Assembly (NCBI GenBank): GCA_902622745.1
Contig: CACNQW010000003.1
Location: 26,877 to 90,876, forward strand
DNA from: an uncultured SAR116 cluster alpha proteobacterium
GTDB lineage: Bacteria; Pseudomonadota; Alphaproteobacteria; Puniceispirillales; Marisalimonadaceae
Length of the DNA stretch: 64,000 nucleotides
Direction: 5' to 3'
Shown: piece after piece, positions 28,357 through 61,463 of the stretch
Position numbering within the stretch: the stretch's first letter is position 1
Layout of the letters: every line of letters begins with the position of its first letter
Made by a program: the position numbers and the translations under genes
The notes under the pieces: model-generated
Seen by the model: only the letters and a program-made list of their open reading frames with translations
Told to the model about the DNA's origin: nothing
The model's database searches: none

Positions 28357-29559
28357 ATGGATTTTATTTCACACAGTTTAAAAAAAATTAAGCCATCACC
28401 TACAATGGTTATTACAGCTAAAGCAAGAGAACTTAGAGCTGCTGGTGAAAAAATAATTAGCTTATCTGCTGGAGAACCAGATTTTGATACACCAGAACAT
28501 GTAAAAGATGCTGCAATTAAAGCGATAAATATGGGCTATACTAAATATACCAATGTAGAGGGTATACCTGAGTTAAAACAAGCAATAGTAAATAAATTTA
28601 AAAATGACAACGAGATAGATTATAATATAGATCAAGTCATAGTTGGAGTTGGTGGAAAACAGATTTTGTTTAATGCTTTGTTTGCTTCATTAAATTCAGG
28701 AGATGAAGTAATTATCCCTACACCATATTGGGTTTCATATCCAGACATGACAATATTAGCTGGTGGTACACCGAAGTTTTTAAATTGTAATGAAGAAAAT
28801 GATTTTAAAATTAACCCTTCAGAATTAGATAATATTATATCAAAAAAAACAAAATGGATAATTTTAAATAGCCCTTCTAATCCATCAGGTTCATGCTATA
28901 CAAAACAAGAGTTAAATAATATTGCAGATGTTTTACGACAACATAAAGATGTAAATGTCATAACAGATGATATATATGAATATATAATATATGATGATTT
29001 TAAATTTTATACATTAGCTCAAATTGCTCCAGATTTGAAAGATAGAATACTTACAGTCAACGGTGTTTCAAAAAGCTATTGCATGACTGGTTGGAGAATT
29101 GGTTATGCAGCTGGGAGAAAAGATTTGATTCTAGCTATGATGAAAATACAAGGTCAATCAACCTCTAATCCAACTTCAATATCACAATATGCAGCCTTAG
29201 CTGGATTGAATGGTGATAGAAAATTTTTAGAACCATGTTTAAAAGCATTTAACGAAAGAAAAAATCTTGTGGTTGAAGGTTTAAATTCCATTGATGGTAT
29301 AAGCTGTTTAATGCCAAAAGGAGCTTTTTATGCTTACCCAAATGTTTCCGGATTGATTGGTAAAAAAACTAAGAATGGAAAATTTTTAAGCAATGATACA
29401 GAAGTTGTGGAGTGGATTTTAGAAGAAGCTAAAGTTGCAGCTGTACCTGGTAGTGCATTTGGTTTAGAACCATATTTTAGAGTTTCGTATGCGACAAGCA
29501 CCGAGGATCTTAAAATAGCAATACAGAATATAAAAAATTCTGTTGGTGAATTGATCTAA
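28357..29559 (+). CDS. Pyridoxal phosphate-dependent aspartate aminotransferase (class I)
   Basis: LSAGEPDFDTPEHVKDAAI, LNSPSNPSGSCYTKQEL, VNGVSKSYCMTGWRIGYAAG (PLP lysine). Confidence 0.95.
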   Translation: MDFISHSLKKIKPSPTMVITAKARELRAAGEKIISLSAGEPDFDTPEHVKDAAIKAINMGYTKYTNVEGIPELKQAIVNKFKNDNEIDYNIDQVIVGVGGKQILFNALFASLNSGDEVIIPTPYWVSYPDMTILAGGTPKFLNCNEENDFKINPSELDNIISKKTKWIILNSPSNPSGSCYTKQELNNIADVLRQHKDVNVITDDIYEYIIYDDFKFYTLAQIAPDLKDRILTVNGVSKSYCMTGWRIGYAAGRKDLILAMMKIQGQSTSNPTSISQYAALAGLNGDRKFLEPCLKAFNERKNLVVEGLNSIDGISCLMPKGAFYAYPNVSGLIGKKTKNGKFLSNDTEVVEWILEEAKVAAVPGSAFGLEPYFRVSYATSTEDLKIAIQNIKNSVGELI

Positions 29560-30510
29560 ATGTATCTTAAAAAGAAAAAGTCTTGGGAAATTTCTGAATC
29601 ATCGGTAACTGATGAAAGTTATTTTAGAAATAGAAGATCTTTCGTTAGATCTCTTGGTAAATCAGCATTGATGTTCTCGTTATATCCCTCATTTTCTTTA
29701 GCTTCATATCAGACTACAAATAAACTTAATAAAAAATATTTGCTTCCATTGCCTTACACAAGTGAAAAGTTAGCTACGACATACACAAATTTTTACGAAT
29801 TTGGTTCAAGTAAAAATATTTGGAGAAGAGCATCAAAACTAAAAGTTGATGATTGGTCAATCAAAATTGACGGATTAGTTAAGAAAAAGAAAACATTTGA
29901 TATTGATAAGCTCAAAAAATTGATTGGACTTGAAGAAAGAATTTATAGATTTCGCTGTGTTGAAGGTTGGGCGATGGTTGTTCCGTGGTTAGGATTTCCA
30001 GTGAATAAAATTTTAGAAATTGTTGACCCAGATAAGGATGCTAATTACGTAAGGTTTGAAACTTTTTATGATCCAAAAATTGCTCCAGGTCAAAAACAAT
30101 CATGGTATCCGTGGCCATATGTTGAGGGCATAACCCTTGAAGAAGCAAAAAATGACTTAGCTTTTTTTGCAACTGGAATTTATGGAAAAGATATTCCTAA
30201 TCAAAATGGTGCTCCTTTAAGATTGGTATTACCTTGGAAGTATGGTTTTAAATCAATTAAATCTATTGTAAAAATTACATTTACAAGAGAAAAACCAGTT
30301 GGTTTATGGGAAAAATTAGCACCTAAAGAATATGGTTTTTGGGCTAATGTTAATCCAAATGTTCCTCATCCTAGATGGTCTCAAAGTAAAGAACAATTAT
30401 TAGGAACAAATGAATTTCAAAAAACACAAATTTATAATGGTTATGAAAAAGATGTTTCTTATTTGTATTTAAATTTGTCCAAACAGGAGAAATTAAAATT
30501 ATTTCGATAA
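29560..30510 (+). CDS. msrP: Protein-methionine-sulfoxide reductase catalytic subunit MsrP (Tat-exported molybdoenzyme)
   Basis: Tat-like signal NRRSFVRSLGKSALMFSL; YRFRCVEGWAMVVPWLGFP molybdopterin Cys region; LPWKYGFKSIKSIVKI...PHPRWSQ. Confidence 0.93.
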   Translation: MYLKKKKSWEISESSVTDESYFRNRRSFVRSLGKSALMFSLYPSFSLASYQTTNKLNKKYLLPLPYTSEKLATTYTNFYEFGSSKNIWRRASKLKVDDWSIKIDGLVKKKKTFDIDKLKKLIGLEERIYRFRCVEGWAMVVPWLGFPVNKILEIVDPDKDANYVRFETFYDPKIAPGQKQSWYPWPYVEGITLEEAKNDLAFFATGIYGKDIPNQNGAPLRLVLPWKYGFKSIKSIVKITFTREKPVGLWEKLAPKEYGFWANVNPNVPHPRWSQSKEQLLGTNEFQKTQIYNGYEKDVSYLYLNLSKQEKLKLFR

Positions 30511-31461
30511 TTTATCCAAGATTAATTTGAAATCTTTATTTAATTTTTTTTGATTATCTAGTGGTATTTTTCTAAAACTATAAAACGATTTTTTAAAAAT
30601 TTTCATATTATTAGATGCCAAAAGTTTTTGGTGAAAAGTTTTAAGTTTACTTTTTTCTTCATTTAAGTATCCCAGAAATAAATTCTTGTTAGTTGAAGCA
30701 ATTTCACTAATCATATTCACACTATCGTTAGTTACAATTACATAATTACATAATTTAATTATTGATGGGTAGATATTAGGTTCATCATTTTTTGAGATAT
30801 AAAAGTGATTTTTAAAATCAGCAAATATTTGTTCTGCTAGATATAAAATATTATTTGGTGTTCTTCTTGACTGACATATAATAACATTTGCTGAAATTTT
30901 TTTTGCAGCATTTTTTATATCAATTAGAAGCTTGGAATAATCTGTATTAGTTGGAGTGTATCTTTTACTTTTCCCACCTAAGAGAATCAATACGTTTGGA
31001 GATTTAAAACATTTAAATTTTTTTTCTATTAAAGGGTTTTTTTTCTCAATTTCCATTTCATTAAATGGCGAGAGTGAACCTACTATTTTAATTACATTTT
31101 TTTTACGGTAAAAATCATCATGTTCAGGTGTAACAAGTATATCAAAGTATTCAGAATAAAAATTTGGTTTTTGCAGATGAATATTAATAATTTTGTTGCC
31201 ATAGAGCTTTTTGAGAGCAGCAGAAACTCCTGATAATTTTTTTCCAGTAGTGATTAAATACTTAAAATTATATTTTTCAATTAATTTAAAATTATTTTCT
31301 AAATTATTAAAAATGTTTCCAAAAAAAGGGAAAGTCTTTATTAGAAGATTAAGCTTGATTTTAATTGTTTTGAATTTTAAACCTAAATTTTTTGCTAAAG
31401 CTATTGATTGATTATCGATTCCTTTAATGCCAATTAATAATATCAAGCATTCTGTTTTCAT
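30499..31461 (-). CDS. ELM1/GtrOC1 (DUF1022) family protein
   Basis: ITTGKKLSGVSAALKKLYGNKIINIHLQKP, DILVTPEHDDF, VIVTNDSVNMISEIASTNKNLFL. Confidence 0.82.
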   Translation of the reverse strand: MKTECLILLIGIKGIDNQSIALAKNLGLKFKTIKIKLNLLIKTFPFFGNIFNNLENNFKLIEKYNFKYLITTGKKLSGVSAALKKLYGNKIINIHLQKPNFYSEYFDILVTPEHDDFYRKKNVIKIVGSLSPFNEMEIEKKNPLIEKKFKCFKSPNVLILLGGKSKRYTPTNTDYSKLLIDIKNAAKKISANVIICQSRRTPNNILYLAEQIFADFKNHFYISKNDEPNIYPSIIKLCNYVIVTNDSVNMISEIASTNKNLFLGYLNEEKSKLKTFHQKLLASNNMKIFKKSFYSFRKIPLDNQKKLNKDFKLILDKLSK

Positions 31462-31466
31462 AAGGG

Positions 31467-31943
31467 TTATTTAAGGACATCTATATTTATAATTTCATAA
31501 TTTTTTAAGCCACTAGGCGTTTTAATTTCTACTTGAGTTTCGTTCTCCTTACCCATAAGGCCTTTAGCTAATGGTGATGATACAGAGATCAATCCTTTTT
31601 CTAAATTAGCTTCATAGGGACCAACTATAGAAAATTCTACATCCTTATCTGCATCTTCATCATATACAGTTACTTTTGTACCAAAGGTAACCTTTTTTCC
31701 ATCAAGTTTTGTCAAATCTATTACTTCAGCTCTACTTAAAACACTTTCAAGTTCAGTTATTCTTCCTTCAATAAATGATTGTTTTTCTTTAGCAGCATGA
31801 TATTCAGCATTTTCTGACAAATCTCCATGTTCACGGGCAGTCGAAATTGCTTTTATGATTTCTGGCCTTTGAATTTTTTTTAAATCATTTAATTCATTTT
31901 TTAGATTTTCTAACCCATCTATTGTAAAAGGTACTTTGTCCAT
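31467..31943 (-). CDS. greA: Transcription elongation factor GreA
   Basis: ISTAREHGDLSENAEYHAAKEKQSFIEGRITELE; C-terminal SVSSPLAKGLMGKENETQVEIKTPSG. Confidence 0.96.
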   Translation of the reverse strand: MDKVPFTIDGLENLKNELNDLKKIQRPEIIKAISTAREHGDLSENAEYHAAKEKQSFIEGRITELESVLSRAEVIDLTKLDGKKVTFGTKVTVYDEDADKDVEFSIVGPYEANLEKGLISVSSPLAKGLMGKENETQVEIKTPSGLKNYEIINIDVLK

Positions 31944-31953
31944 AAAACTCCAA

Positions 31954-34900
31954 TCAATTTAAATATGATTGTAATGAGTGTACACTAATTTTTTTGTTAA
32001 TTACACTTCTAATAGCAGATATTACGGCAATAGCTCCTTGTATAGTAGTATAATAAGGAATATTATTTAATAATGCTGTTTGTCTTAATGAAAAGCTATC
32101 TTCAATTGATTTTAAACCTTCAACTGTATTTATAACAAGATCAATTTCGTTTGAAATCATTAAATCAACTACATTTGGTCTTCCTTCAAAAACTTTTTTA
32201 ACAGTTTCACAAGAAATTTTATTATTATTTAGGAAGGTCGATGTTCCTTTAGTTGCAATTAAATCAAAACCAAAACTTATTAAATATTTTGCAGGTTCAA
32301 TTATTTTTCTTTTGTCATCATCTTTTATAGAAATGAAGATTTTACCTTTATGCGGAAGAGGTATGTTAGAGCCTAATTGACTTTTGTAAAAAGCTAATTC
32401 AAAGTTTTTGTCAATTCCCATAACTTCACCAGTTGATTTCATTTCAGGTCCTAAAATAATATCTGTGCCAGGAAATCTAGAAAAAGGAAACACTGCTTCT
32501 TTTACACACACATGTTTTAAGTTATTTTCTTTTAAATTAAGTTCTTTTATTGAACGACCAACCATAATTTGACAGGCATAATTTACTAGCGGATGTCCTG
32601 TTGCTTTTGCAACAAATGGTATAGTTCTACTTCCTCTTGGATTAACTTCTAGGATATATAAATCGTCATCTTTAATAGCAAATTGAATATTCATAAATCC
32701 TTTAACTTTTAGATTTTTTGCGATAATTTTAGTTTGATTTCTTATTTTATTTAACATTGAATCAGATATATTTTGAGGTGGTAATACACATGCAGAATCT
32801 CCTGAGTGTATTCCAGCCTCTTCAATGTGTTCCATTATGCCAGCAATAAAAACATCTTTTCCATCGGATATTGCATCAACATCTACTTCCATTGCATTTT
32901 TTAAAAATTGATCTATCAATACAGGATTTTTCCCTGATACTCTAACAGCCTCAGTAATGTATTTATCTAATTGACTTACATTGTGTATTATTTCCATAGC
33001 TCTTCCCCCAAGTACATAACTTGGTCTAATCACAATTGGAAAGCCTATATTTTCACAAATTTTATTAGCTTCAATTTTACTTTTGGCAACATCATTAACT
33101 GGTTGTTTTAGATTTAAAGATCGTATTAATTTTTGAAATCGATCTCTATCTTCAGCTAGGTCAATTGCATCAACTGAAGTTCCTAAAATTTTAATTCCTG
33201 ATTTGTCCAACTCATTTGCAATTTTAAGAGGAGTTTGACCGCCTAGCTGAACAATTACACCAAGTAGTTTTCCATTTTCTTGTTCTTTATTTATGATATC
33301 AAAAACATTTTCAAAAGTAAGTGGTTCGAAATAAAGTTTGTCAGACGTATCATAATCAGTAGAAACTGTTTCTGGATTGCAATTAATCATTATCGATTCA
33401 ATCCCCATTTTTTTTAAACTGTAAGAAGCATGAACACAACAATAATCAAACTCGATACCTTGGCCAATTCTATTTGGCCCACCGCCAAGAATCACAACTT
33501 TCTGTTTTTCAGATGGATTTGCCTCACATTCTGTTATATCTGATAATTCATATGAACTATATAAATAAGCTGTTTCAGATGAAAACTCAGCTGAACAAGT
33601 ATCTACTCTTTTAAAAGATGGAAAAACATTATATTTTTTTCTAAGATTTATTATTTCATTAACATCTATTTTTACTAATTCAGAAATTTTTAAATCTGAA
33701 AAGCCCATAGATTTTAGATTTGTTAAAAATTCTTTATTTTTGTTTATTCCATTTTTTCTTAAAAACTCTTCTATTTCAATTATTCCACTAATTTGTTCCA
33801 AAAACCAGTAATCCCATCCTGTTTTATCATTAATTTCTTTTAAAGAAAAACCTCTTCTTATAGCTTCAGCTATAATTAAAATTCTTTCTGGAATTGGTTC
33901 ACTTAGTAATTTTTCTAATTCTTCTGTGGCATTGTTACTTATTTGATCTAATCCTGAATAATCATTTTCAAGAGATCTTAGTCCTTTTTGAAGAGATTCT
34001 TGGAAAGATCTACCTATTGACATAGCTTCTCCAACAGATTTCATTGAAGTTGTTAAATATTTTTTTGAGCCTGGAAATTTTTCAAAGGTAAATTTTGGAA
34101 TTTTTGTTACTATATAATCTATCGTCGGCTCAAAGCTGGCAGGTGTATTTTTTGTAATATCGTTAGTTAATTCATCTAAATGGTAACCTATGGCAAGTTT
34201 TGCAGCTATTTTTGCTATTGGAAAACCTGTTGCTTTTGAAGCAAGTGCAGATGATCGGCTCACTCGAGGATTCATTTCAATAACAATTTGTCTACCATCT
34301 TTAGGATTGACTGCAAATTGAACATTTGATCCACCTGTATCAACACCAATTTCTCTCAGGATATTAATACTCGCTAATCGCATTTTTTGATATTCTTTAT
34401 CTGTAAGTGTCAAAGCAGGAGCAACTGTTATAGAATCTCCAGTATGAACTCCCATAGGATCAACATTTTCAATAGAACAAATTATTATACAATTATCAAA
34501 TTTATCTCTTACTACTTCCATTTCAAATTCTTTCCAGCCAATAAGTGATTCTTCAATTAAAACTTCACTAACAGGACTTAATTTTAATCCTTGTTCTATG
34601 ATTGAAATGAATTCTTCTTTATTATAGGCAACTCCACCACCTTCTCCACCAAGGGTAAAGGAGGGTCTAACAATGCATGGTAATCCAACAAAATCTAATG
34701 ACTTTAAAGCATCATTCATATTTTTCACAATTCTCGCTTTTGCTGAAGATAAGCCAATTTTATCCATTGATTTTTTAAATAAACTTCTATCTTCAGCTTT
34801 TTTAATTGATTCGGGTTTAGCTCCAATAATTTCAATATTTTCTTTTTCTAATATTCCATCTTTGTGTAATTCTAATGTAACATTTAGTGCGGTTTGCCCC

Positions 34901-35172
34901 CCCATAGTTGGTAAGATTGCATCAGGTTTTTCTTTTTTTATTATCTTATGAATTACATCTTTTTGGATTGGCTCAATATATGTAGCATCTGCCATAATTG
35001 GATCTGTCATTATAGTGGCAGGATTAGAATTCACTAAAATAACTCTTATACCTTCTTCTTTAAGAGCCTTGCATGCTTGAGCTCCTGAATAATCAAATTC
35101 ACATGCTTGACCAATTACAATTGGACCTGCGCCTATGATTAAAATTGAGTTTAAATCAATTCTTTTTGGCAT
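31954..35172 (-). CDS. carB: Carbamoyl-phosphate synthase large subunit
   Basis: 1072 aa; [28 protein letters not shown], duplicated ATP-grasp domains, [24 protein letters not shown]. Confidence 0.98.
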
Positions 35173-36379
35173 TACTGTACTCTAGACAAAGATTATAGAA
35201 TTTATCAAACAAATATGATGTATCTGTAGGTCCTGGAGACGCTTCTGGATGAAATTGAACTGAAAAAATTGGAAGTTCTTTATGTTTAAGACCTTCAATT
35301 GATTGATCAAATAAAGAAATATGAGTTATCTGAAGTTCACTTGGAAGACTTTGTTTATCTACAATAAAGCCGTGATTTTGACTTGTTATTTCTACACTAT
35401 TTGTTTCTAAATTTTTTACAGGATGATTTGCCCCTCTATGACCTTGTTTCATTTTAGAAGTTTTGGCACCTATTGTTAAAGCTATAAGTTGATGACCAAT
35501 ACAAATGCCAAAAATAGGAATTTTTAAATTAGTTAAATTTTTTAATAATTTAAAAACATTTGGATCAGATGCTTTTGGATCACCTGGTCCATTAGATAAA
35601 AATATACCGTCTGGATTTTTTGAAATAATTTCTTTAATTGTTGTGGTGTAAGGTAGTACGGAAACTTCAAAATTTCTTTCATATAAGTTTCGTAAAATAT
35701 TTGATTTTACTCCGTAATCAAAAGCAACTATTTTTAGTTGCCTATTATTTTGTTTTTTTGGTAATTTGATTAATTTATGTAAATTTTCTTTCCAAAAGTA
35801 TTCTTTTTTGGTAGAAATTTTACTGAATAACTCAAGCCCATTCATAGAAGGATGGCTTTTTAAAATGTTATTTAACTCATTAAAATTTTCTTTATTTTCA
35901 ATTTTGGCAATTATTGCATTAATTGATGACTTATTTCTAATGATTTTTGTTAATTTTCTTGTATCGATTCCGGCAATTCCGGGTATTGATAATTCTTTTA
36001 ACCATTCAGATAAATTTTGTTCACTTCTCCAGTTTGATTCTTTTGAAGGAAGTTGTCTTGTTATCACACCCGAAACACTAGATTTGCCTTCATTATCGTT
36101 AATGTTAGTACCTACATTTCCTATATGTGGAAATGTAAAGTTAATTATTTGATTTGTGTATGATGGATCAGTAATTATTTCCTGATACCCAGTCATTGAT
36201 GTATTAAAACATAATTCTCCAGCTCCAAGCTTTTCAGACCCAAAAGAATATCCAAAAAACATTTCTCCAGATTCTAATATTAATATCGCATCTTTTGATA
36301 AAATGTTTTGGTTTAAATAATTAAAAGGTATATAAGAGTCCAGGTTGGAATTTTTTAAATCATACATATATATACTCAA
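35156..36379 (-). CDS. carA: Carbamoyl-phosphate synthase small subunit
   Basis: [45 protein letters not shown]-type glutaminase motif, [16 protein letters not shown]. Confidence 0.97.
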
Positions 36380-36469
36380 GCAATATCATAGATATTTATA
36401 TATTAATTAAAATGGATTACATTTGACGTCAATAAAATTAAACAAAAGAACATTCTACACAGGTGTTTT

Positions 36470-36922
36470 ATGAGAGAAAAACTTAATTCAGAGCTAAAAA
36501 AATCTATAATTAATAAAAATTCAATAGCTACAAAAACAATTAGGTTAATACTAGCAGCTATTAAAGATAGAGATATTGTTGTTAGATCTAAGGGAAATCA
36601 AAGTGGTATAGATGAGGGTGAAATAATTTCTTTACTAAAAAAAATGCAAAAACAAAGAGAAGAGTCCATAGAACTTTATTCAAAAGGCAATAGAATGGAT
36701 TTAGTTAAAAGTGAAGAAGATGAAATAAATATAATTAAAGAGTTTTTACCAAAACAAATGAATGAAGATGAAATTTTTAAAATTGTCAATGAAGTGATTA
36801 AAATTTTAGATGCAAAATCGATTAGAGACATGGGTAAAGTGATGAATTATCTTAAAGAAAATTATTCTGCAAAAATGGACTTTGGCAAAGCTAGTAAATT
36901 TTTAAAAGAAACTTTAATTTAA
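36470..36922 (+). CDS. GatB/YqeY domain-containing protein
   Basis: LKKMQKQREESIELYSKGNR, EEDEINIIKEFLPKQMNEDEI, DMGKVMNYLKENY. Confidence 0.93.
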   Translation: MREKLNSELKKSIINKNSIATKTIRLILAAIKDRDIVVRSKGNQSGIDEGEIISLLKKMQKQREESIELYSKGNRMDLVKSEEDEINIIKEFLPKQMNEDEIFKIVNEVIKILDAKSIRDMGKVMNYLKENYSAKMDFGKASKFLKETLI

Positions 36923-36928
36923 TTAAAT

Positions 36929-38563
36929 ATGATTAATGATGATTTAAAAGAAGAGATAAAAAATCGAATAAAATTATCTGAAATTGTTTCAAAAAAAATC
37001 AACTTAAAAAAAAAAACTGATAATAGCTTTTTAGGTCTATGTCCTTTTCATAATGAAAAAACTCCGTCATTTCATGTTCATGACGAAAAACAATTTTATC
37101 ACTGTTTTGGATGTGAAAAGCATGGAGATATTTTCTCTTTTATTATGGAAATAGAAAATTTAGATTTTTTTAGTGCTCTTAAGTATCTAGCAAATTTGGT
37201 TGGGTTATCTATAAATGATAATAATCAAAATATTTCATTTCAAAGTAAATATAAAGCTCTAGAACTTTCCTCAAATTTTTTTAAAGAAACTTTAAATAGC
37301 AAAAAAAGTAAAAATGTTTTGGATTACCTTAATAAAAGAGGTTTAGATGTAGATATTTGTAAAAAATTTCAATTAGGTTATGCGCCACCAATCAAGCACG
37401 ATAATCAATTAATTGATTATTTAAAATCAAAAGACATTAATGATGAAGAATTAATAGAAATTGGTTTGGCAAAAAAAAAATATGATAACTTATACTGTTA
37501 CTTTTATGATCGAATAATGATACCTATAGTCGCAACTAATGGAAAGATTGTTGGTTTTGGTGGAAGAACTACAAATTCTTCTGAACCTAAATATTTGAAC
37601 TCTCCTGAAAGCAAAGTTTTTAGTAAAAGGAATATTTTATTTGGAGCATATAATATTAAGAAAGAAAAGCACAATGTAGATAATATCATTTTATGTGAAG
37701 GTTATATGGATGTTTTAGCATTACACAGATTTGGATATCCTGCAGTAGCCAGTTTGGGTACGGCTGTTTCAGATAAACAAATAGACTTGTTAAAAAAACT
37801 AACGAAGAATATTTTCGTTGTGTTTGATGGGGATCAGGCTGGCAAAAATGCCACAATTAGATTGTTTGAAAAATTACTACCTCTTTTAAAAACAGATAAT
37901 ATATTTAGATTTATATTTCTACCAAATGATCTTGATCCTGAAGAATATCTTATTAAAAATGGTAAGGATTCCTTTAATTTATTATTAAAAAAAAGTTATA
38001 GTGTATCTGACATTATTTGGTTAATGGGACTAAAAAATAAAATTAATAACTCTGCTGAAGAGATCGCAAAATTTTGGAAATTTTTAAGAAATAAAATATA
38101 TCAAATTAAAGATAAAAATCTTCAATTGGCTATAAAAGATGATCTTGAAAACAGAATCAACAATCTAAGATCTATAAATAGGGCAGGTAATACTAAGGTT
38201 AATAATTTTGTTAATTTAAGTTTGCCCAAGATTGAAAATGATTATAGATATAAAGCTATTCTTATAATTATTCTTAATTTCCCAAAACTCTATGATCTTT
38301 TCGAAAAACAATTAATTAAAATAAAATTTACTAATAATAGTTTACACGAAGTAAAAGAAGTTATATTTAATAATATTAGAATTAATTCTGATGTTAGTTA
38401 CAATCAACTAATTGAAAATTTAAAAGAAAAAAATCTCCTAGAATTACTAGGAGATCTAAGTATTGAAGTTATTTTTTCTAGATTACAATCATCAGATAAA
38501 GATATAAGTATTGATGACAGTAGAAAAATTTTAGAAGAATTAATTTTCATGGTTAATAATTAA
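36929..38563 (+). CDS. dnaG: DNA primase
   Basis: Zinc ribbon CPFHNEKTPSFHVHDEKQFYHCFGCEKHGD; Toprim ILCEGYMDVLALHRFG, VFDGDQAGKNA; precedes rpoD. Confidence 0.97.
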   Translation: MINDDLKEEIKNRIKLSEIVSKKINLKKKTDNSFLGLCPFHNEKTPSFHVHDEKQFYHCFGCEKHGDIFSFIMEIENLDFFSALKYLANLVGLSINDNNQNISFQSKYKALELSSNFFKETLNSKKSKNVLDYLNKRGLDVDICKKFQLGYAPPIKHDNQLIDYLKSKDINDEELIEIGLAKKKYDNLYCYFYDRIMIPIVATNGKIVGFGGRTTNSSEPKYLNSPESKVFSKRNILFGAYNIKKEKHNVDNIILCEGYMDVLALHRFGYPAVASLGTAVSDKQIDLLKKLTKNIFVVFDGDQAGKNATIRLFEKLLPLLKTDNIFRFIFLPNDLDPEEYLIKNGKDSFNLLLKKSYSVSDIIWLMGLKNKINNSAEEIAKFWKFLRNKIYQIKDKNLQLAIKDDLENRINNLRSINRAGNTKVNNFVNLSLPKIENDYRYKAILIIILNFPKLYDLFEKQLIKIKFTNNSLHEVKEVIFNNIRINSDVSYNQLIENLKEKNLLELLGDLSIEVIFSRLQSSDKDISIDDSRKILEELIFMVNN

Positions 38564-38572
38564 GTTGTAAAA

Positions 38573-40591
38573 ATGAAATCAAAAACAAATAAAAAAACTA
38601 AAATAAAATCCGAGTTAGAAAACTCGGATAAACCAATAATTGATCTAAATAATTCTGAAATAAAAGCTTTATTAAAAAAAGGTAAATCCACTGGTTATAT
38701 TACTCACGATCAATTAAATAAAGCTTTACCAGATGGGGAATTAACTTCTGAACAAATAGAAGATGTAATGGTAGCAATAAATGAATTAGGTGTAAACATT
38801 ATAGATCAAAATGAAGAAAGTAGTTCAGAGGAAAATGATGGAAAGTCTGTTGGAAATATTGCTGAAGATGAAGGTAGTCGTTCTGATGATCCAGTTAGGA
38901 TGTACCTCAAAGAGATGGGTACTGTAGAATTATTATCAAGAGAAGGTGAAATAGCAATAGCTAAAAGGATTGAAGCTGGCAAAGAATTGATGATTGGAGG
39001 ATTATATGAAAATCCTATTGCATTGAATCAATTTTTACAATGGAGAGATAATGTAGATAACGGTTCAATGATGTTAAGGGATATTATTGATTTAGAAACA
39101 ACTTATTCCAGACTGAATGAAGAGGATGCTATTAGTAAAAATTTATCTAAAGAAAATCCTTTAATAAATAGTGAACCTTTACAAAACAATAAAATAAATA
39201 TTAACAATATTTTAGAAAGAACAGTCTCCAAAGAAAATCTTAAACCCAATAATGAAATCCTTCCTGATAATGATAATGAAGAAGAGAAAGATGAAAGCCA
39301 TAATGACGATGATGAAGAAAATGATTCAAATTTATCTCTTGTTGCGATGGAAACTGAGATCAAAGGATCTATATTAGAAATTATTGATAGTGTTGTTGAA
39401 ACATTTAAACAAATTGAAATTTTGAATGACAGAAGATTAGCAAGGCTTCAAAAAGGTGATGAATTAATTGAGAGATCTGAAAAGAAAAGATTTGATCTAC
39501 AAATTGATCTTATTAATAAATTAGATAAAATTTACTTAAATCCAAACAAACAAGAAATATTATTAGATCAGATCTATGGTCTTAATAAAAAAATATCAAA
39601 TATTGAAGGTAAATTGCTTAGGATGGCAGAACAATCTGGCATTAAAAGAATTGATTTTTTAAATAAATGGCAAGATGGAAAATTTTATCATAATTGGAAA
39701 GATAATGTAAATACAAATAAAGTTTGGAAAAAATTTTTTGATGAAAATAAAAATACTATTGATGAATTATTTAATTCAATTAATGAATTTATTTCTAAAG
39801 TAAATTTACCTATTAAAGAGTTTAAAAATCTTGTTCAAATTATTCAAAAGGGTGAGAGAGAAGCAGCGCGAGCGAAAAAAGAAATGGTAGAGGCTAATTT
39901 GAGGTTAGTAATCTCAATAGCCAAAAAATATACCAATAGAGGGCTTCAATTTTTAGACCTCATTCAAGAAGGTAATATTGGTTTAATGAAAGCTGTTGAT
40001 AAATTTGAGTATAGAAGAGGTTATAAATTCTCAACATATGCAACATGGTGGATTAGACAAGCAATAACTCGATCTATAGCTGATCAAGCAAGGACCATAC
40101 GTATACCTGTGCATATGATTGAGACGATTAATAAAATTGTTAGAACTTCAAGGCAAATGTTGCATGAAATAGGACGAGAACCAACTCCTGAAGAATTATC
40201 TACAAAGTTATCAATGCCATTAGATAAAGTAAGAAAAGTATTAAAGATTGCTAAAGAACCAATTTCACTCGAAACTCCTGTTGGTGATGAAGATGATAGT
40301 CATCTTGGTGATTTCATTGAAGATAAAAATGCTGTTCAGCCGTTAGAGGCTGCTATTCATGCCAATCTTCGTGAAACAACTACAAGAATTTTATCTAGTC
40401 TAACACCAAGGGAAGAACGTGTACTTAGAATGAGATTTGGTATAGGAATGAATACGGATCACACACTGGAAGAGGTGGGACAGCAGTTTAGTGTTACTCG
40501 TGAGAGAATTAGGCAGATTGAAGCTAAAGCATTGAGAAAACTTAAACACCCATCGCGATCAAGAAAATTAAGATCATTTCTAGAAACATAA
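38573..40591 (+). CDS. rpoD: RNA polymerase sigma factor RpoD (sigma-70)
   Basis: [104 protein letters not shown]-terminal HTH. Confidence 0.99.
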
Positions 40592-40599
40592 AAGCTATC

Positions 40600-40628
40600 T
40601 TTACTTTACTGCTTATAAATTGTATAAC
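40600..40628 (+). promoter_or_regulatory. Putative sigma-70 promoter for tRNA-Ile2
   Basis: TTTACT (40600-40605), 17 nt spacer, TATAAC (40623-40628), about 15 nt before the mature tRNA 5' end. Confidence 0.45.
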
Positions 40629-40643
40629 ACTATTCGTTATATA

Positions 40644-40720
40644 GGTCCTGTAGCTCAGTTGGTTAGAGCTCTCCACTCATAATGGATAGGTCGCAGGTTC
40701 GAGTCCTGCCGGGACCACCA
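40644..40720 (+). tRNA. tRNA-Ile2 (anticodon CAT, expected lysidine-modified), CCA encoded
   Basis: GGTCCTG/CGGGACC acceptor stem, GTTCGAGTC T-arm, anticodon loop CTCATAA. ACTCATAAT...GGTCGC resembles E. coli tRNA-Ile2 rather than tRNA-Met. Sits directly after rpoD. Confidence 0.9.
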
Positions 40721-40742
40721 CACACTAATTATTGAATTTATT

Positions 40743-40764
40743 AAGATTATAAGTTTATAATCTT
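40743..40764. repeat. Perfect inverted repeat (10-bp arms, 2-nt centre)
   Basis: AAGATTATAA-GT-TTATAATCTT, 8 nt upstream of the dehydratase ATG. Confidence 0.8.
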
Positions 40765-40772
40765 ATATCAAT

Positions 40773-42503
40773 ATGAAAAAAAATTATAAAAACCTCAGAA
40801 GCTATAGGTGGTTTGCTCCAAATGATATTAGATCCTTCGGGCATAGATCACGAGCGATGCAAATTGGTTATAGTAAAGATGACTGGTATGGCAAACCCAT
40901 AATTGGAATAATAAATACATGGTCAGATATACAACCTTGTCACATTCATTTTAAAAGTAGAGTAGAGGACGTAAAAAGAGGTATTTTTCAAATGGGTGGT
41001 TTTCCTATAGAATTACCATCAATTTCTTTAGCTGAAATGTATGTGAAACCAACAACAATGCTCTATAGAAACATGCTTTCTATGGAAGTTGAAGAATTAA
41101 TTAGATCTCATCCAATAGACGGTGTTGTTTTAATGGGAGGTTGTGACAAAACTACACCAGCTTTACTAATGGGTGCTATAAGTAATGATTTACCAACAGT
41201 TTTCTTACCAGCCGGACCAATGTTAAGAGGAAATTTTAAAGGTAAATTTTTAGGAAGTGGTTCTGATGGATGGAAATATTGGGCAGAACTAAGAGCAGGC
41301 AATATTTCAGATGATGATTGGCAAGAAGTTGAAACAGGCATAGCAAGATCTTATGGTCATTGTATGACTATGGGTACAGCTAGTACAATGACAGCTATAG
41401 CAGAAGCTATAGGTTTTTGCTTGCCTGGTGCAAGCTCAATTCCAGCCCCAGACTCAAATCATATTAGAATGTCTTCAAATGTAGGGAAAAGAATAGTTGA
41501 AATGGTTTGGCAAGATTTAAAGCCTTCAAAGTTTGTGACTAAAAAATCAATTGAAAACGCGATAATTGTTGCAATGGCTATGGGTTGTTCAACTAATGCC
41601 ATTATACATTTAATTGCTATTGCTAGAAGGTCTAGAATAAGACTTACTATGGATAAATTAGATGAAATAGGAAGAAAAGTTCCAGTAATTGCAAACATAA
41701 GACCTTCAGGAAAAGAATACTTAATGGAAGATTTTTATTATGCTGGTGGAATTCTTTCATTAATGTATCAACTCTCAGATATCTTGAATATTAATGAAAA
41801 AACAGTTGTTGGTAAAAATATTAAAGATATTATAAAAAAACAAAAACCAATAAATGAAGATGTAATAAGGCCTTTAAAAAATCCCATTTATAAAGAGGGA
41901 TCTTTGGCCGTTTTAAAGGGAAATTTGGCTCCAGATGGTTGTGTTATAAAACCAGCAGCTTGTGAAAAAAAATTTTTGAAGCATAAGGGTCCAGTTATTG
42001 TTTTTGATAGTTACCCTGAAATGAATAAGATTATTGACTCTGATGACTTAGATGTTTCAGAAAACCATGTCCTTGTGCTTAGAAATGTTGGTCCGGTCGG
42101 TGGACCAGGAATGCCTGAGTGGGGAATGATACCAATTCCTAAGAAATTATTAAAAAAGGGTGTTAGGGATATGGTTAGGATTTCAGATGCTAGAATGAGT
42201 GGCACAAGTTATGGCGCATGTATACTGCATGTTGCTCCAGAGAGTTATATAGGTGGACCTCTTTCTCTATTAAAAACAGGTGATATAGTTGAAATTGATG
42301 TAAACAAAAGAAGTATAAATATGTTAGTTGATAACAAAACATTGCAAAAGAGAAAATCAAATTTAGTTCAAAAAAAACCTAAAGCTGGAAGAGGTTGGCT
42401 ATGGATGTATAGTAATCATGTTAAGCAGGCTAATGAAGGTTGTGATTTTGATTTTTTAGAAACTGATTTCGGCAACTCTGCAAAAGAGCCAGATATATTT
42501 TAA
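40773..42503 (+). CDS. IlvD/Edd family dehydratase, likely sugar-acid (L-arabinonate-type) dehydratase
   Basis: NTWSDIQPCHIHFK, LMGGCDKTTPALLMGA, YGHCMTMGTASTM (Fe-S cysteines), SDARMSGTSYGACILHVAPES; pattern more like arabinonate/xylonate dehydratase than IlvD. Confidence 0.88.
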   Translation: MKKNYKNLRSYRWFAPNDIRSFGHRSRAMQIGYSKDDWYGKPIIGIINTWSDIQPCHIHFKSRVEDVKRGIFQMGGFPIELPSISLAEMYVKPTTMLYRNMLSMEVEELIRSHPIDGVVLMGGCDKTTPALLMGAISNDLPTVFLPAGPMLRGNFKGKFLGSGSDGWKYWAELRAGNISDDDWQEVETGIARSYGHCMTMGTASTMTAIAEAIGFCLPGASSIPAPDSNHIRMSSNVGKRIVEMVWQDLKPSKFVTKKSIENAIIVAMAMGCSTNAIIHLIAIARRSRIRLTMDKLDEIGRKVPVIANIRPSGKEYLMEDFYYAGGILSLMYQLSDILNINEKTVVGKNIKDIIKKQKPINEDVIRPLKNPIYKEGSLAVLKGNLAPDGCVIKPAACEKKFLKHKGPVIVFDSYPEMNKIIDSDDLDVSENHVLVLRNVGPVGGPGMPEWGMIPIPKKLLKKGVRDMVRISDARMSGTSYGACILHVAPESYIGGPLSLLKTGDIVEIDVNKRSINMLVDNKTLQKRKSNLVQKKPKAGRGWLWMYSNHVKQANEGCDFDFLETDFGNSAKEPDIF

Positions 42504-42513
42504 GATAATTATT

Positions 42514-43419
42514 ATGAAAAATGAAATTAAAGATATATATAAAAAAGCTAGTGTAGCAACAATTTGTACCGCCCTTTTTAAAAAGGGTTTAAAAAATCAA
42601 TTCATTCAAGGTATTTCGCCTTTAAACAAAAAAATTTCTAAAATGTTAGGTTTAGCTTTTACAGTTAGATATATTCCTGCAAGAGAAGATTTGAATTCAA
42701 TTGATGTGTTTAAAGATCCAAATCACCCTCAAAGGGTAGCTGTTGAAGAATGTCCAAAAGATTATGTTATGGTGTTTGACAGTAGAAAAGATCCGAGAGC
42801 TGCATCCGCGGGATCCATATTATTAACTCGAATGATGGTAAGAGGATGTGCTGGTGTTGTTACTGATGGTGGGTTTAGAGATTCTCATGAAATTAAAAAC
42901 TTAAACATACCTACTTATCATAACAGACCCTCATCACCAACTAATTTAACTTTACATCAAGCTATTGACATTAATGTGCCAATTGGTTGCGGTGATGTTG
43001 CAGTTTGGCCTAATGATTTAATTATAGGGGATCAAGAAGGCGTTGTTGTGGTTCCAAATAATATTATTACAGATATTTCAAAAGAAGTTAAGTTTATGAC
43101 AATATATGGATATACTACAAAAAAGTCTTTAAGCGGACTTGGATCATTTCTAATTATGGGCGTTTTTGGGCTTATAATAGCTCAAATCGTTAATATTTTT
43201 TTAGCTTCATCAGGTCTAGACTTTATGATTTCGGTCATAGGGGTATTAATTTTTGCTGGCCTTACAGCTTATGATACTCAGAAGATTAAGAACATGTATT
43301 ATGCCGCTGACGATAGTGAAACAGCAGGCAAAAAATCTATAATAGGTGCCTTAACTTTATACTTAGATTTTATTTTGATGTTTCAGTTTTTATTATCATT
43401 ACTTGGTAATCGTGAGTAA
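42514..43419 (+). CDS. Chimeric protein: RraA-family domain fused in frame to the C-terminal half of a Bax inhibitor-1/YccA membrane protein
   Basis: N-terminus RraA-like: ASVATICTALFKKGL, AASAGSILLTRMMVRGCAGVVTDGGFRD, VGCGDVAVWPNDLIIGDQEGVVVVP-type motifs. C-terminus BI-1/YccA-like: YGYTTKKSLSGLGSFLIMGVFGLIIAQIVNIFLASSGLDFMISVIGVLIFAGLTAYDTQKIKNMYYAADDSETAGKKSIIGALTLYLDFILMFQFLLSLLGNRE. Confidence 0.9.
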   Translation: MKNEIKDIYKKASVATICTALFKKGLKNQFIQGISPLNKKISKMLGLAFTVRYIPAREDLNSIDVFKDPNHPQRVAVEECPKDYVMVFDSRKDPRAASAGSILLTRMMVRGCAGVVTDGGFRDSHEIKNLNIPTYHNRPSSPTNLTLHQAIDINVPIGCGDVAVWPNDLIIGDQEGVVVVPNNIITDISKEVKFMTIYGYTTKKSLSGLGSFLIMGVFGLIIAQIVNIFLASSGLDFMISVIGVLIFAGLTAYDTQKIKNMYYAADDSETAGKKSIIGALTLYLDFILMFQFLLSLLGNRE

Positions 43420-51706: not shown

Positions 51707-52656
51707 AAACTTCTTCTTACTTGTGTAATTTCAGCCATGATAGAAAGAGCAATTTCTTGTGGTGTTTTAGATGAAATATGTAATCCAATTGGTGCATGAA
51801 TTTTATTAATTTGATCCAAATTATAGCCTTCACTTTTAAGTCTTTCAATTCTACTTGCATGAGTTCTTCTACTCCCAAGGGAACCAACATAACCAGCATC
51901 AGAATTTAAAGCTATTTTTAATGCAAGATCATCTATTTTAGGATCATGGGTCAGTGTAACTATATTGTCTGAAAAATTAAAATTGTAATTTTCTAATGCA
52001 ACATCTGGCCATTTGTTAATAATTATATCATTTGGGAATCTTTTTTTATTCGCAAAATATTCTCTTGGGTCAATTATTATCACTTCGTATTCACATATAT
52101 TTGCTAATGAAGAGAGTGCTTGTGATAGATGAACTCCTCCTATTATAAAAAGCCGTGGTTTTGGGTCAATTATATGATAAAAAATATTTTTTTTATGATC
52201 TAAGTAACTAGTTTTTTTTTGTTCTTTATCTAATTTTGAAATAATTTCTCTTTTTCCATTTTTACAATCTGCTTTAATTATAACTCTTTCCCTTTTATGA
52301 ATCATTTCTTTAGCTTTAAATATAATTTTATCGTTATCTTCTAATGGGTTTATTAATATTTTTAAATTACCACCACATGCTAGTCCAACTTCCCATGCTA
52401 AATCATTTGTGATTCCATAATCTTTAATTCTGTGTTTTTTATCTTTTAAAGAATCTAGAGCTTCTGTTATTACTGAGTTTTCAACACATCCACCAGATAC
52501 AGATCCTATAATTTCTCCTGTCTCATTAATGGCCATTTGACCGCCAACTTGTCTAGGAGCACTTCCCCATGTTGATATAACAGTCGCAATTGCTACTTTA
52601 TTTTTTTCTTTTAACCAATTAAAAGTTGGTGTGATAATATCGTCTAAATTATTCAT
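51703..52656 (-). CDS. XdhC family protein
   Basis: VAIATVISTWGSAPRQVGGQMAIN, GSVSGGCVENSV, FIIGGVHLSQALSSLA, DPKIDDLALKIALNSDAGYVGSLGSRRTHASR. Confidence 0.93.
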   Translation of the reverse strand: MNNLDDIITPTFNWLKEKNKVAIATVISTWGSAPRQVGGQMAINETGEIIGSVSGGCVENSVITEALDSLKDKKHRIKDYGITNDLAWEVGLACGGNLKILINPLEDNDKIIFKAKEMIHKRERVIIKADCKNGKREIISKLDKEQKKTSYLDHKKNIFYHIIDPKPRLFIIGGVHLSQALSSLANICEYEVIIIDPREYFANKKRFPNDIIINKWPDVALENYNFNFSDNIVTLTHDPKIDDLALKIALNSDAGYVGSLGSRRTHASRIERLKSEGYNLDQINKIHAPIGLHISSKTPQEIALSIMAEITQVRRSF

Positions 52657-52735
52657 ATTTTATTTTAATTTATTAACTAATTATATTATATTGATAATAT
52701 CATTAAACAATAAATACAAACAAGGCTGTTAATAA

Positions 52736-53326
52736 ATGTTAAATCAATCAAATGCTTTCAATGCTGATACTTGGGTCGGAAATCTTATAAGTAAGAATAC
52801 TGAAAACATTAATATAAAAATACTATTTTTAATTATTACAGTTTTTTTTGGGAGTTTGTTACTTATTGCTTCTGCAAAAATTAAAGTTCCACTTTATCCA
52901 GTTCCTATGACTTTGCAACCAATGGCAGTATTAATGATAGCAATGTTGTATGGAAGAAATTTGGCAACTCTGACAGTTGGATTATATATTTTTAAAGGTA
53001 TTATTGGATTACCTGTTTTTGCATTTGGAGGTGGTTTAATGTATTTAATGGGTCCAACCGGAGGTTTTATTTTAGGTTTTTTTGCAAGTGCTATCATAAT
53101 AGGGTATTTAGCTGACCGTGGTTGGGGGAAAAAATTTTCACTATCAATAATATCAATGTTAATTGGTATGGTTATAATTTATACTTTAGGTATTTTTCAA
53201 TTAGCACTCTTAAATGGATTTAATTACGCTTTACTGAAAGGTTTTTATCCTTTTTTGTTAGGTGATTTCTATAAATTGCTTTTAGCTGGAATTATTACTC
53301 CTTATTTTTGGAAGTTATATAAATAA
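52736..53326 (+). CDS. bioY: Biotin transporter BioY
   Basis: AKIKVPLYPVPMTLQPMAVLMIAMLYG, GLYIFKGIIGLPVFAFGGGLMYLMGPTGGFILGF. Confidence 0.94.
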   Translation: MLNQSNAFNADTWVGNLISKNTENINIKILFLIITVFFGSLLLIASAKIKVPLYPVPMTLQPMAVLMIAMLYGRNLATLTVGLYIFKGIIGLPVFAFGGGLMYLMGPTGGFILGFFASAIIIGYLADRGWGKKFSLSIISMLIGMVIIYTLGIFQLALLNGFNYALLKGFYPFLLGDFYKLLLAGIITPYFWKLYK

Positions 53327-53340
53327 CTTAAATTATAATT

Positions 53341-53724
53341 TTGAAAAACATAAATATTGATGTATTAGACGCTTTTAATTTTTTGTCAAAAAACCTTAAT
53401 TCTCATTTGATAGATACTCGATCAGATTTAGAATGGAAGATAACTGGAATACCAGATTTATCGTCAATTAATAAAGAAACTAATTTAATTAATTGGGGCC
53501 CAGTTCTGGATAAAAATTTTTTTGAAAACTATCAAAAATTTCTTTTAAATTCATTTAACCAAGAAGATAGTTTATTATTTATATGTAGATCAGGTTCAAG
53601 ATCACTTGTGGCAACACAATTAGCAATTGAACTTGGTTTCAACAATAGCTTTAATATATATGCAGGGTTTGATAATGAAAGCGATCAAAACTGGAAGAAA
53701 AATTTACCAGTAAAATTTATCTAA
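53341..53724 (+). CDS. Rhodanese-like domain protein (TTG start)
   Basis: HLIDTRSDLEWKITGIPDL, LLFICRSGSRSLVATQLAIELGFNNSFNIYAGFD (active-site Cys loop CRSGSRS). Confidence 0.88.
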   Translation: MKNINIDVLDAFNFLSKNLNSHLIDTRSDLEWKITGIPDLSSINKETNLINWGPVLDKNFFENYQKFLLNSFNQEDSLLFICRSGSRSLVATQLAIELGFNNSFNIYAGFDNESDQNWKKNLPVKFI

Positions 53725-54002
53725 GCGTCATTTATATAATTTTTATTATTTTTTGAGCTATCTGTTTGAGAATTATCAATTAAATCTTCTAACGCATCTT
53801 CAAAAGCAACAAGTTCAATATTTTCGTTAAGTTCAATATTATCGATTAAATATTCTTCAGGTGAGATATTTTCATCATGTTGGACATTTACAGCGATTAT
53901 AGCTGCAATTGTGGAAGTAACTTTTTTATTTTTTTTCTTAAAATTATTAAAGTTAATAATATTTGAACTTGTTTTTTTATCTTTGGTTTCAGCAGACATC
54001 AA
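53721..54002 (-). CDS. Hypothetical acidic protein (93 aa)
   Basis: Intact ORF; Lys-rich N-terminal half, acidic C-terminal half; no family recognised. Confidence 0.5.
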   Translation of the reverse strand: MMSAETKDKKTSSNIINFNNFKKKNKKVTSTIAAIIAVNVQHDENISPEEYLIDNIELNENIELVAFEDALEDLIDNSQTDSSKNNKNYINDA

Positions 54003-54062
54003 TATACCTTATTATTAATAACACAAAATTTACATTAATTACAATATATCATTATAGATCAA

Positions 54063-55235
54063 TTATTGACCAACTCTACGGATAATTATTCTTCCTGAAG
54101 GTCTGTTATTAACATTTTCAACTGTTCTAGTTGAGAGACTATATAGGTTTGTTTCAATACCAAAATTATCAACAACTGCAACTCTTGTTCTTATTTGGTA
54201 TCCAACTAATTCTTGGTTAAGATTAAGAGATGGACCGCTAACACTATTAAGAGCAATCCAATTACGCCCATCTTTTGATTTTTCCCAACTAATATTAATT
54301 GAAGCTATTCCATCCTCGTCCGATAATGAATTTGAAATCGCTTTAAGAATTGAGCCTTCTCTTGGCATGCCGTTTATTGTAACATCTCCTTGAACAGGGT
54401 CGTCTAGATTATCGATAGATTCTGATGGGCTGGTGTATAACACTTCTCTGGTACCATGACTATCAACATATGAAACAACAGCTCTAAAAGAATAGTTTAC
54501 GTGTTCTTGTTGTAATCTTAGAACTTCACCATTTTCTGATGGAAAAGCTTCCCAATCAGACTGTGATGAAGATCTTTGCCAAGAGATTTCAAATCCACCT
54601 ATGCCATCTTCATCTGATATACTTGATGTATCAACAACAAGAGCACTATCTTCTACCGGCGTTCCAATAAGTCTTGCAGAACCAGTAGGTTTATCATTAA
54701 CATTTTTTACTTTAGATGATGGTGGGCTAATTAAGCTCTCTAAATTACCTTGACCATCAACATATGAAATTACAACTCTTAATTTTTTACCCACATGAAT
54801 TTCTCTTGGAGTGAATGATTGACTCACTTCTTTACTTATGTTTTTCCATGAACTTCCCGTATCTGATATTTGCCATTGAACACTCACTTGACCCATTCCA
54901 TCAGAGTCGATGACTGACGACAAATCAACAATTAAGGGCTCATCTTCTACTGCCGAAAAACCTGAAACAGTTGATTCTTGAGTATTGTTAGAGGTTTTTG
55001 AATTTGAGGAACCTTTATTTTTTTTTGTTGTTAAATTTTTGCTTTTTGTTTTGTAAACAGTACTGTGATCATGTTGTTTAATATTTGATTTAGTTTGATA
55101 AACTTTTTTGTCTTTAATACTTGGGTCACCTCCCGCAATTGAAACATTTAAATTAACAGTTGCAATAGTGAGAAACGTTGCTAATGAGGTATATCCACAA
55201 AATTTAGCTAAAAATGTATGCATTAAGATCTCCAA
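54063..55235 (-). CDS. Secreted protein with three 98-residue adhesin-type (Ig/cadherin-like) repeats
   Basis: N-terminal signal-like segment, then repeats with conserved SDxDG...W..S....W......VG...R..VSYVD..G...SL.SPPS..V.NVNDKPTG. Start may be Met5 (55223). Confidence 0.8.
   Translation of the reverse strand: MEILMHTFLAKFCGYTSLATFLTIATVNLNVSIAGGDPSIKDKKVYQTKSNIKQHDHSTVYKTKSKNLTTKKNKGSSNSKTSNNTQESTVSGFSAVEDEPLIVDLSSVIDSDGMGQVSVQWQISDTGSSWKNISKEVSQSFTPREIHVGKKLRVVISYVDGQGNLESLISPPSSKVKNVNDKPTGSARLIGTPVEDSALVVDTSSISDEDGIGGFEISWQRSSSQSDWEAFPSENGEVLRLQQEHVNYSFRAVVSYVDSHGTREVLYTSPSESIDNLDDPVQGDVTINGMPREGSILKAISNSLSDEDGIASINISWEKSKDGRNWIALNSVSGPSLNLNQELVGYQIRTRVAVVDNFGIETNLYSLSTRTVENVNNRPSGRIIIRRVGQ
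54093..54974 (-). repeat. Three tandem protein-level repeats of 98 codons
   Basis: Residues about 88-185, 186-283 and 284-381. The conserved Trp falls at residues 121, 219 and 317, and the DxDG motif starts at 110, 208 and 306 (exact period 98). Confidence 0.85.
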
Positions 55236-55302
55236 ACTTATAATATAAAATATTATATCATCCTATAAAATAAGATATTTTTATTTTTAATCAACAAAAT
55301 AT

Positions 55303-55572
55303 TTATTTATCAAAATTTTTAATTATTTCGTCGATTTCTTTGATCTGCAGGTTAAGGCTTAATTTAATGCTATTTAATTTATCAATAATATTGCTATTGC
55401 TTTGGTTTAAAGCAATATTTTTATCATCTGGAACAATATTTGTTAGAACCATACTATATTCGTCTTTAGAGTTTAAATCTAAATTTTTAGCAAATTTTTC
55501 TATATTTGATAATTCTTCTTCTAATTTATCTAACTTGTTTTCTTCAGATTTAAACATTATAATACCTTTCAT
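55303..55572 (-). CDS. Hypothetical coiled-coil-like protein (89 aa)
   Basis: Intact ORF with heptad-like EENKLDKLEEELSNIEKFAKNLD and SIKLSLNLQIKEIDEIIKNFDK; no family recognised. Confidence 0.45.
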   Translation of the reverse strand: MKGIIMFKSEENKLDKLEEELSNIEKFAKNLDLNSKDEYSMVLTNIVPDDKNIALNQSNSNIIDKLNSIKLSLNLQIKEIDEIIKNFDK

Positions 55573-55595
55573 TAATATTCATAGGTTTTAAAAAA

Positions 55596-56285
55596 ATGTC
55601 AATATTAGATTCGATCAAAAATAGTATATTTATCCCAATTCATCCATCTGGATTACCGTTTATTATTATATTCTGTTTAATAACTTTAATAATCGGTTGG
55701 ATTTGGTCTCCTTTGTTTTTTATTGGGTTAATTTTTACTTTATGGTGTATATATTTTTTTAGAAATCCTGAGAGGGTTGTTCCAAAAAATAGTGATAATA
55801 ACTTGGTTATAGCTCCAGCTGATGGAAAAATTATTGAAATAAAAGAGATTACTCCAGATGAAGAGATCGGCTTACCTAAAAATAAATATATCAAAATTGG
55901 AATATTTATGAATGTTTTCAATGTGCATGTAAATAGATCACCAATGTCTGGTACAATATATAAAAGAAATTATATACCTGGCCTATTTTTCAATGCTAGC
56001 TTAGATAAAGCATCTAAAGAAAATGAGAGATTATCTTTGGTAATGAATGTTAATAATAGGGTTAAAATAGCTTTTGTACAAATTGCTGGGTTATTAGCAA
56101 GAAGAATTGTAAATGACGCTCAAGAAGGAAATAAACTTATAACTGGTCAAATTTTTGGTATAATAAGATTTGGAAGTAAAGTTGATGTTTATATTCCAAT
56201 AGGGTCAAAAATTAACGTTTTACAAGGACAGACTTCAATTGCAGGAGAAACTATTCTTGCTGAGATAGCTCCAAAAAAAAAATAA
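55596..56285 (+). CDS. psd: Phosphatidylserine decarboxylase (archaetidylserine-type proenzyme)
   Basis: FRNPERVVPKNSDNNLVIAPADGKI, GIFMNVFNVHVNRSPMSG, RIVNDAQEGNKLITGQIFGIIRFGSKVDVYIP; followed by pssA. Confidence 0.95.
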   Translation: MSILDSIKNSIFIPIHPSGLPFIIIFCLITLIIGWIWSPLFFIGLIFTLWCIYFFRNPERVVPKNSDNNLVIAPADGKIIEIKEITPDEEIGLPKNKYIKIGIFMNVFNVHVNRSPMSGTIYKRNYIPGLFFNASLDKASKENERLSLVMNVNNRVKIAFVQIAGLLARRIVNDAQEGNKLITGQIFGIIRFGSKVDVYIPIGSKINVLQGQTSIAGETILAEIAPKKK

Positions 56286-56288
56286 ATA

Positions 56289-57080
56289 ATGAAAATTAGA
56301 GGTATTAAATTAGCTAGAAAAGCTTTTTCAGATCGACCAAAAAGATTTTCAATAACATGGCTTTTACCAAATTTTCTGACCATATGTGCTTTGATTTTTG
56401 GTTTACAAGCTTTTTACCATGCAATGTTAGAAAACTGGAATATGGTTATAATTTTTATAATTATTGCAGCGGTTTTTGATTTATTAGACGGAAGAGTAGC
56501 AAGGCTATTAAAGTCAACAAGTAACTTTGGCATGTATTTGGATTCATTATCTGATTTTGTTGTATTTGGAACAATTCCTCCAATTACAATTTATTTTTGG
56601 ATGGGAGGAACTCAAAATAAATATTTTTGGATTGTGGTTGTACTTTTTATTATATGTGCTGCATTGAGGCTTGCTAGATTTAATTCTGAACTTTCAGATA
56701 AACCAACATATGCTAAAAATTATTTTAGTGGAATTCCTACACCTGCTGGTGCGTTTTTAGCTCTTTTACCAATAACAGGTATAGAAATATTTCATCTTAA
56801 TGAATTTAAGACAGAATTTCATATTAGTTTTTGGATTTCACTAATTGCTATTGGGATGGTTAGTAATTTACCAACATTTTCTGGAAAAGTTATGCTAGTG
56901 CCGAGAACTTTTGTAATACCATTTTTAATTCTTCTTGGAATTTTAAGTCATTATATAATTAGTGATCCAACAAAAGGTTTTACTCTTTTAGTGTTGGTTT
57001 ATATACTTACATTATTTATATCACCAATTTTCTATTATAGATTAAGATCAAGATTTGAAAAAAATAAAAAAAATACTTAA
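56289..57080 (+). CDS. pssA: CDP-diacylglycerol--serine O-phosphatidyltransferase
   Basis: LLPNFLTICALIFG, DLLDGRVARLLKSTSNFGMYLDSLSDFVVFG. Confidence 0.95.
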   Translation: MKIRGIKLARKAFSDRPKRFSITWLLPNFLTICALIFGLQAFYHAMLENWNMVIIFIIIAAVFDLLDGRVARLLKSTSNFGMYLDSLSDFVVFGTIPPITIYFWMGGTQNKYFWIVVVLFIICAALRLARFNSELSDKPTYAKNYFSGIPTPAGAFLALLPITGIEIFHLNEFKTEFHISFWISLIAIGMVSNLPTFSGKVMLVPRTFVIPFLILLGILSHYIISDPTKGFTLLVLVYILTLFISPIFYYRLRSRFEKNKKNT

Positions 57081-58090: not shown

Positions 58091-58101
58091 AGTTCTGATA
58101 T

Positions 58102-59100: not shown

Positions 59101-59182
59101 AATTTATCCTTTAATTAACAAAAAAATAATTTAATCTAATTCTATTAGATATTAATATTACAAGTATACATAATAATCATTT

Positions 59183-59845: not shown

Positions 59846-59913
59846 AATAGATTTAATAAAACTAAAATAACTGTTGTAAAGACTGTATATTTGTTTTTAG
59901 ATAAATTATTATT

Positions 59914-60977: not shown

Positions 60978-61461
60978 TTTCTCTCCATATCTTTTTATAT
61001 AATAAATATGATAAAATAATAAAGATACTTATAGATAAAATTCCGTTCCATCCAGCTAAACTAATATTAAGCAATTCAAATTGTATTTCGTCACATCTTA
61101 TAGGACTTTTTGATAATAATTGATCCAAAGTATTTTCATTAAATATTAAATTGGAGCTACATTCTGAAAATCCTTGCCAAAGATTTTTTTCAATACCAAA
61201 GTGGTAAAAAGCTAAAATTGAGCTGCCTAACCAAAGTACATTCAATATTGATAAAATAATGAACTTTAATTTGTAAAATGTATATAATGGGAATACTAAT
61301 AAACTTAAAATTAATATAGATGCATGAACTATTCTTTGTTTAATACATAAATCACAAGGGATAAGGGAGAGATAAAACTCTAAAAAATATGCCCCAAGTA
61401 GCAAGCCTGAGGATAGTAACAAAGATAGAGTTGCATTTAAATTATTAGATATAGTTTTCAT
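60958..61461 (-). CDS. Disulfide bond formation protein, DsbB family
   Basis: Four TM segments, periplasmic PCDLCIKQR CxxC and a second Cys pair (SECSSN...SPIRCDE). Confidence 0.88.
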   Translation of the reverse strand: MKTISNNLNATLSLLLSSGLLLGAYFLEFYLSLIPCDLCIKQRIVHASILILSLLVFPLYTFYKLKFIILSILNVLWLGSSILAFYHFGIEKNLWQGFSECSSNLIFNENTLDQLLSKSPIRCDEIQFELLNISLAGWNGILSISIFIILSYLLYKKIWRENEKQIR

Positions 61462-61463
61462 AT

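Follow-up and report, generated by a model that had tools for sequence, protein, structure and literature searches.

Phi29 multiple displacement amplification (MDA) is known to generate chimeras in which two non-adjacent segments of DNA are joined at a short, perfect homology, most of them local and inverted. The overlaps are mostly 5 to 8 nucleotides long, with a peak at 6 (PMC4595205, PLoS One 2015), and extend up to 21 bp; in 127 of 475 chimeras, the joined segments lay more than 10 kb from each other (in direct orientation in 58 cases), and only about one in three of the joins exceeding 10 kb showed complementarity (PMC1855051, Lasken and Stockwell 2007). Here, we describe an open reading frame (ORF) in a 64,000-nucleotide stretch of DNA (the window, analyzed at its full length) that resembles such chimeras in joining two non-adjacent segments at 9 bp of perfect homology. 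Its two parts belong to the RraA-like family (PF03737) and to the Bax inhibitor-1 (BI-1)/YccA family (PF01027). We consider it very likely that the ORF is a chimera of laboratory and assembly origin, formed by a template switch during MDA and kept by the assembler. The two parents are ordinary conserved genes of a marine SAR116-type bacterium, and the apparent fusion is almost certainly an artifact and not a new protein.

An open reading frame composed of two partial genes

Positions 42514 to 43419 (+ strand) of the assembled sequence hold one unbroken ORF of 301 amino acids. An earlier note on this DNA had described a single in-frame ORF with an RraA start and the C-terminal half of BI-1, both truncated, and the ORF call and Pfam matches bear out this description. 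Residues 15 to 179 match the whole RraA-like domain (PF03737; E value of 6e-30, 104.8 bits against a cut-off of 24.5), the domain being that of the intact rraA gene, which in the window has lost its C-terminal tail. Residues 194 to 297 match Bax1-I (PF01027; E value of 3e-34) over profile positions 109 to 207 of 207 only; the ORF holds part of the membrane domain, and the intact gene of 242 amino acids is present in relatives.

The rraA 5′ part (42514 to 43108, + strand) is collinear with intact same-genus rraA loci up to 43108, at 82 to 98% DNA identity. It comprises residues 1 to 198 of an ordinary 235-amino-acid RraA-like gene and, like such a gene, sits beside an IlvD/Edd-type dehydratase ORF (40773 to 42503), here upstream; unlike an ordinary member of the family, it lacks its last 37 residues in the window, as the contig there passes to the other locus. 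The BI-1/YccA-family 3′ part (43100 to 43419, + strand) keeps approximately the last 105 of 242 residues, nearly identical to the BI-1 of the genus (95 to 97% protein identity to the intact protein in most same-genus genomes and 81% in one), whereas the N-terminal 137 or so residues are absent, again owing to the switch of locus. The terminator-like hairpin 3′ of the ORF belongs to the BI-1 locus's own 3′ context. Within the window's own genome, an assembly that is 68% complete, this BI-1 half is the sole PF01027 match. The in-frame, doubly truncated ORF almost certainly describes the assembled sequence and not a gene of the organism.

Intact rraA and BI-1 genes in related genomes

The 301-amino-acid protein was searched against 101 genomes, namely, the window's own genome, 12 further members of its genus, and, for the remainder, members of its family or order. 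The query split, with rraA matches covering approximately residues 1 to 208 and BI-1 matches approximately residues 194 to 301 at different places; among the matches listed for these 101 genomes, only the window's own spanned the junction. In the same genus, a 2-kb DNA probe centered on the junction divided in the same manner, with positions 1 to 1000 on one contig and approximately 989 to 2000 on another. Translation recovered a full-length rraA of 235 amino acids in 8 same-genus genomes and a full-length, nearly invariant BI-1 of 242 amino acids in 10. The two genes are separate and complete, always lie on different contigs in the genus, and are the intact loci to which the two parts of the ORF map. 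The earlier note had named separate full-length genes in relatives, with no fused allele, as evidence against a real fusion, and it is this arrangement that the relatives carry. G074 is the one order-level genome in which a single contig carries both, and there they are on the same strand, approximately 648 kb apart. Patterns back-translated from the junction peptide MTIYGYTT were absent from GTDB r220 contigs and IMG/VR, from which the records of the window's own genome may have been left out, and a literature search found no paper combining RraA, Bax inhibitor, and fusion.

A single breakpoint at a 9-bp microhomology

Base-by-base comparison with 9 rraA and 10 BI-1 loci placed the junction at an exact 9-bp microhomology, CAATATATG, at 43100 to 43108, common to both loci. 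The window matches the rraA locus up to 43108 and the BI-1 locus from 43092-43100 onward, giving a single sharp breakpoint. A switch had already been noticed near 43090 (residue 193 or thereabouts); the switch is upheld, and the DNA comparison moves its position to 43100 to 43108. In simulated joins between the rraA and BI-1 loci, at least 9 shared bases arose at random with a probability of approximately 0.0002, and such rarity indicates that the join was guided by homology, as in template switching. The shared stretch is read in the same frame by both loci (MTIYEDY in rraA, LSIYGYT in BI-1), which is why the frame stays open across the junction; the chance of a preserved frame is approximately 1 in 3.

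On either side of the breakpoint, the window follows its relatives. Positions 1 to 43108 form an rraA-locus segment and positions 43100 to 64000 a BI-1-locus segment, each collinear with relatives, the individual collinear stretches running from 1 to 35070, 32956 to 43108, 43100 to approximately 53100, and 52651 to 60148, and then to 64000.

The missing halves in the same genome

The same assembly also contains the continuation of the rraA side, on another contig and at its end. The downstream flank of a relative's rraA was found in the window's genome at 96% identity over 9.3 kb, at positions 29247 to 38538 of the 38,543-base contig C10, that is, at the contig's very end. C10 starts with the 3′ end of rraA, exactly 46 bases beyond the final base shared at the junction, an offset that is the same against all 8 of the relatives compared, and it encodes there most of the 37 residues missing from the window. 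From rraA, C10 extends for 38.5 kb and does not arrive at BI-1, which sets a minimum of 38 kb between the two loci.

The BI-1 side is less complete. A probe of the BI-1 upstream flank recovered only its far end in the window's own genome, at the start of contig C14, leaving approximately 8.5 kb, with the BI-1 5′ half, unassembled. The full-length yccA/BI-1 that the earlier note had proposed to look for elsewhere in the genome was found only as the half in the ORF, the assembly gap covering its 5′ half. No reciprocal junction (BI-1 5′ half with rraA 3′ half) was found in the assembly: the rraA sequence of C10 continues to the contig end, and the assembly lacks the BI-1 5′ half.

The 46-base offset can be accounted for by the way in which single-cell genomes are assembled. 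SPAdes uses a default largest k of 55 for such reads. Two branches that leave one vertex of the assembly graph share 55 bases ending at their last common base, and a trim of 100 bases would set the first base of the trimmed branch at trim length − k + 1, or 100 − 55 + 1 = 46, equal to the offset observed. The Bigelow single-cell pipeline runs SPAdes with --careful --sc and then trims 100 bp off each contig end (PMC5519541; PMC9771814). The agreement between predicted and observed offsets indicates that C10 and the BI-1 side of contig C3, which carries the window, were very probably alternative exits of one graph vertex, and it follows that the data contained both an intact rraA path and a chimeric one. 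Among the nearest named relatives, SAR116 assemblies whose isolate names (AG- and AH-) are of single-cell style predominate; from these names and the contig arithmetic, with k taken as 55, we infer that the window's genome is probably a single amplified genome. The same arithmetic was uninformative at the right end of C3 (window position 64000), where comparison with the relatives G012 and G008 places a gap of approximately 6 kb before the first base of contig C2 of the window's own genome; C3-right and C2 are probably chromosomal neighbors.

Origin of the junction

Of the origins put forward in the earlier note, an assembly chimera is the one singled out by the separate intact genes in relatives, the continuation on C10, and the single microhomology breakpoint. 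Phi29 amplification gives rise to such molecules when a displaced 3′ end primes anew on a different strand. During phi29 MDA of the DNA of one cell, a displaced 3′ end from one locus could have annealed through CAATATATG to the other; its extension would then have yielded a molecule in which the rraA and BI-1 loci are joined. At this chimeric edge, the single-cell assembler would have gone on into BI-1, probably for want of amplified DNA from the true upstream side of that gene, and the true continuation of rraA would have been left as a contig of its own, C10. We infer that the chimeric molecule arose by MDA and not in some other in vitro step. Against MDA, most of its chimeras are local and inverted, and the present join, at 38 kb or more, is in a minority class; the join nevertheless falls within the published range of MDA chimeras in its 9-bp overlap and its distance. 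Unlike chimeras seen in reads, the putative chimeric molecule is known here from the assembled contig, and its support is at the level of the assembly.

Microhomology joins also arise in vivo, and a translocation or segmental duplication in the lineage of the cell would, with the frame kept, leave a fused, probably nonfunctional ORF. We regard such a real rearrangement as very unlikely. The presence of the rraA continuation on C10 makes a simple deletion impossible and demands a duplication of the rraA side, together with a contig that by chance ends at exactly the base predicted for a graph branch. C10, moreover, stays rraA to its first bases, with no reciprocal junction, the same-strand orientation in G074 means that a simple inversion cannot make the join, and no relative among the genomes searched carries the fused allele. 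The recent deletion envisaged in the earlier note is excluded on the same ground, C10 having kept the 3′ end of rraA together with 9.3 kb of downstream flank. A misjoin by the assembler without any chimeric molecule would fit the union of unrelated loci beside a contig end and an assembly gap, and yet such assemblers use a smallest k-mer of 21, so that 9 shared bases are too few to create the edge without a chimeric read or molecule, and we give this account only the slightest chance. A gene fusion that yielded a functional RraA-like enzyme tethered to the membrane, also raised in the earlier note, is favored only by the ORF being open and in frame, and we find it scarcely credible. In the genus, each partner is conserved as a full-length gene, with almost no variation in BI-1, and the lone PF01027 half in the genome comes from an assembly that is 68% complete, with a gap exactly at the BI-1 5′ half. 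Such a fusion is contradicted by the intact rraA path on C10 and is rejected on this continuation, the 46-base offset, and the separate genes of relatives. It is, similarly, extremely improbable that a segmental duplication specific to the lineage brought another copy of the rraA region into a microhomology join with BI-1 and gave rise to an expressed RraA/BI-1 membrane fusion.

If the ORF is an amplification chimera, as we propose, it carries no biological weight, and the fusion protein very probably does not exist. The case is a caution that amplification can also produce in-frame domain fusions in single-cell assemblies, and that such chimeras can be recognized without reads from the positions of contig ends (offset = trim length − k + 1).

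Other differences among related genomes

Two further differences were seen in individual relatives. In G011, the IlvD-rraA 5′ region occurs twice (L130, at the end of its contig C3 at 16340, and L039, on C37), and one copy is cut by a contig end inside rraA, leaving the first 131 residues at 88% protein identity; given a listed contamination of 5%, the duplicate copies may reflect a mixed bin. In G002 (L120, C1:96000-108000), approximately 2.4 kb of extra DNA lies opposite window positions 62140 to 62190 or thereabouts, such that the blocks 60167 to 62193 and 62139 to 64000, adjacent in the window, are approximately 2.4 kb apart, a small indel or island difference.
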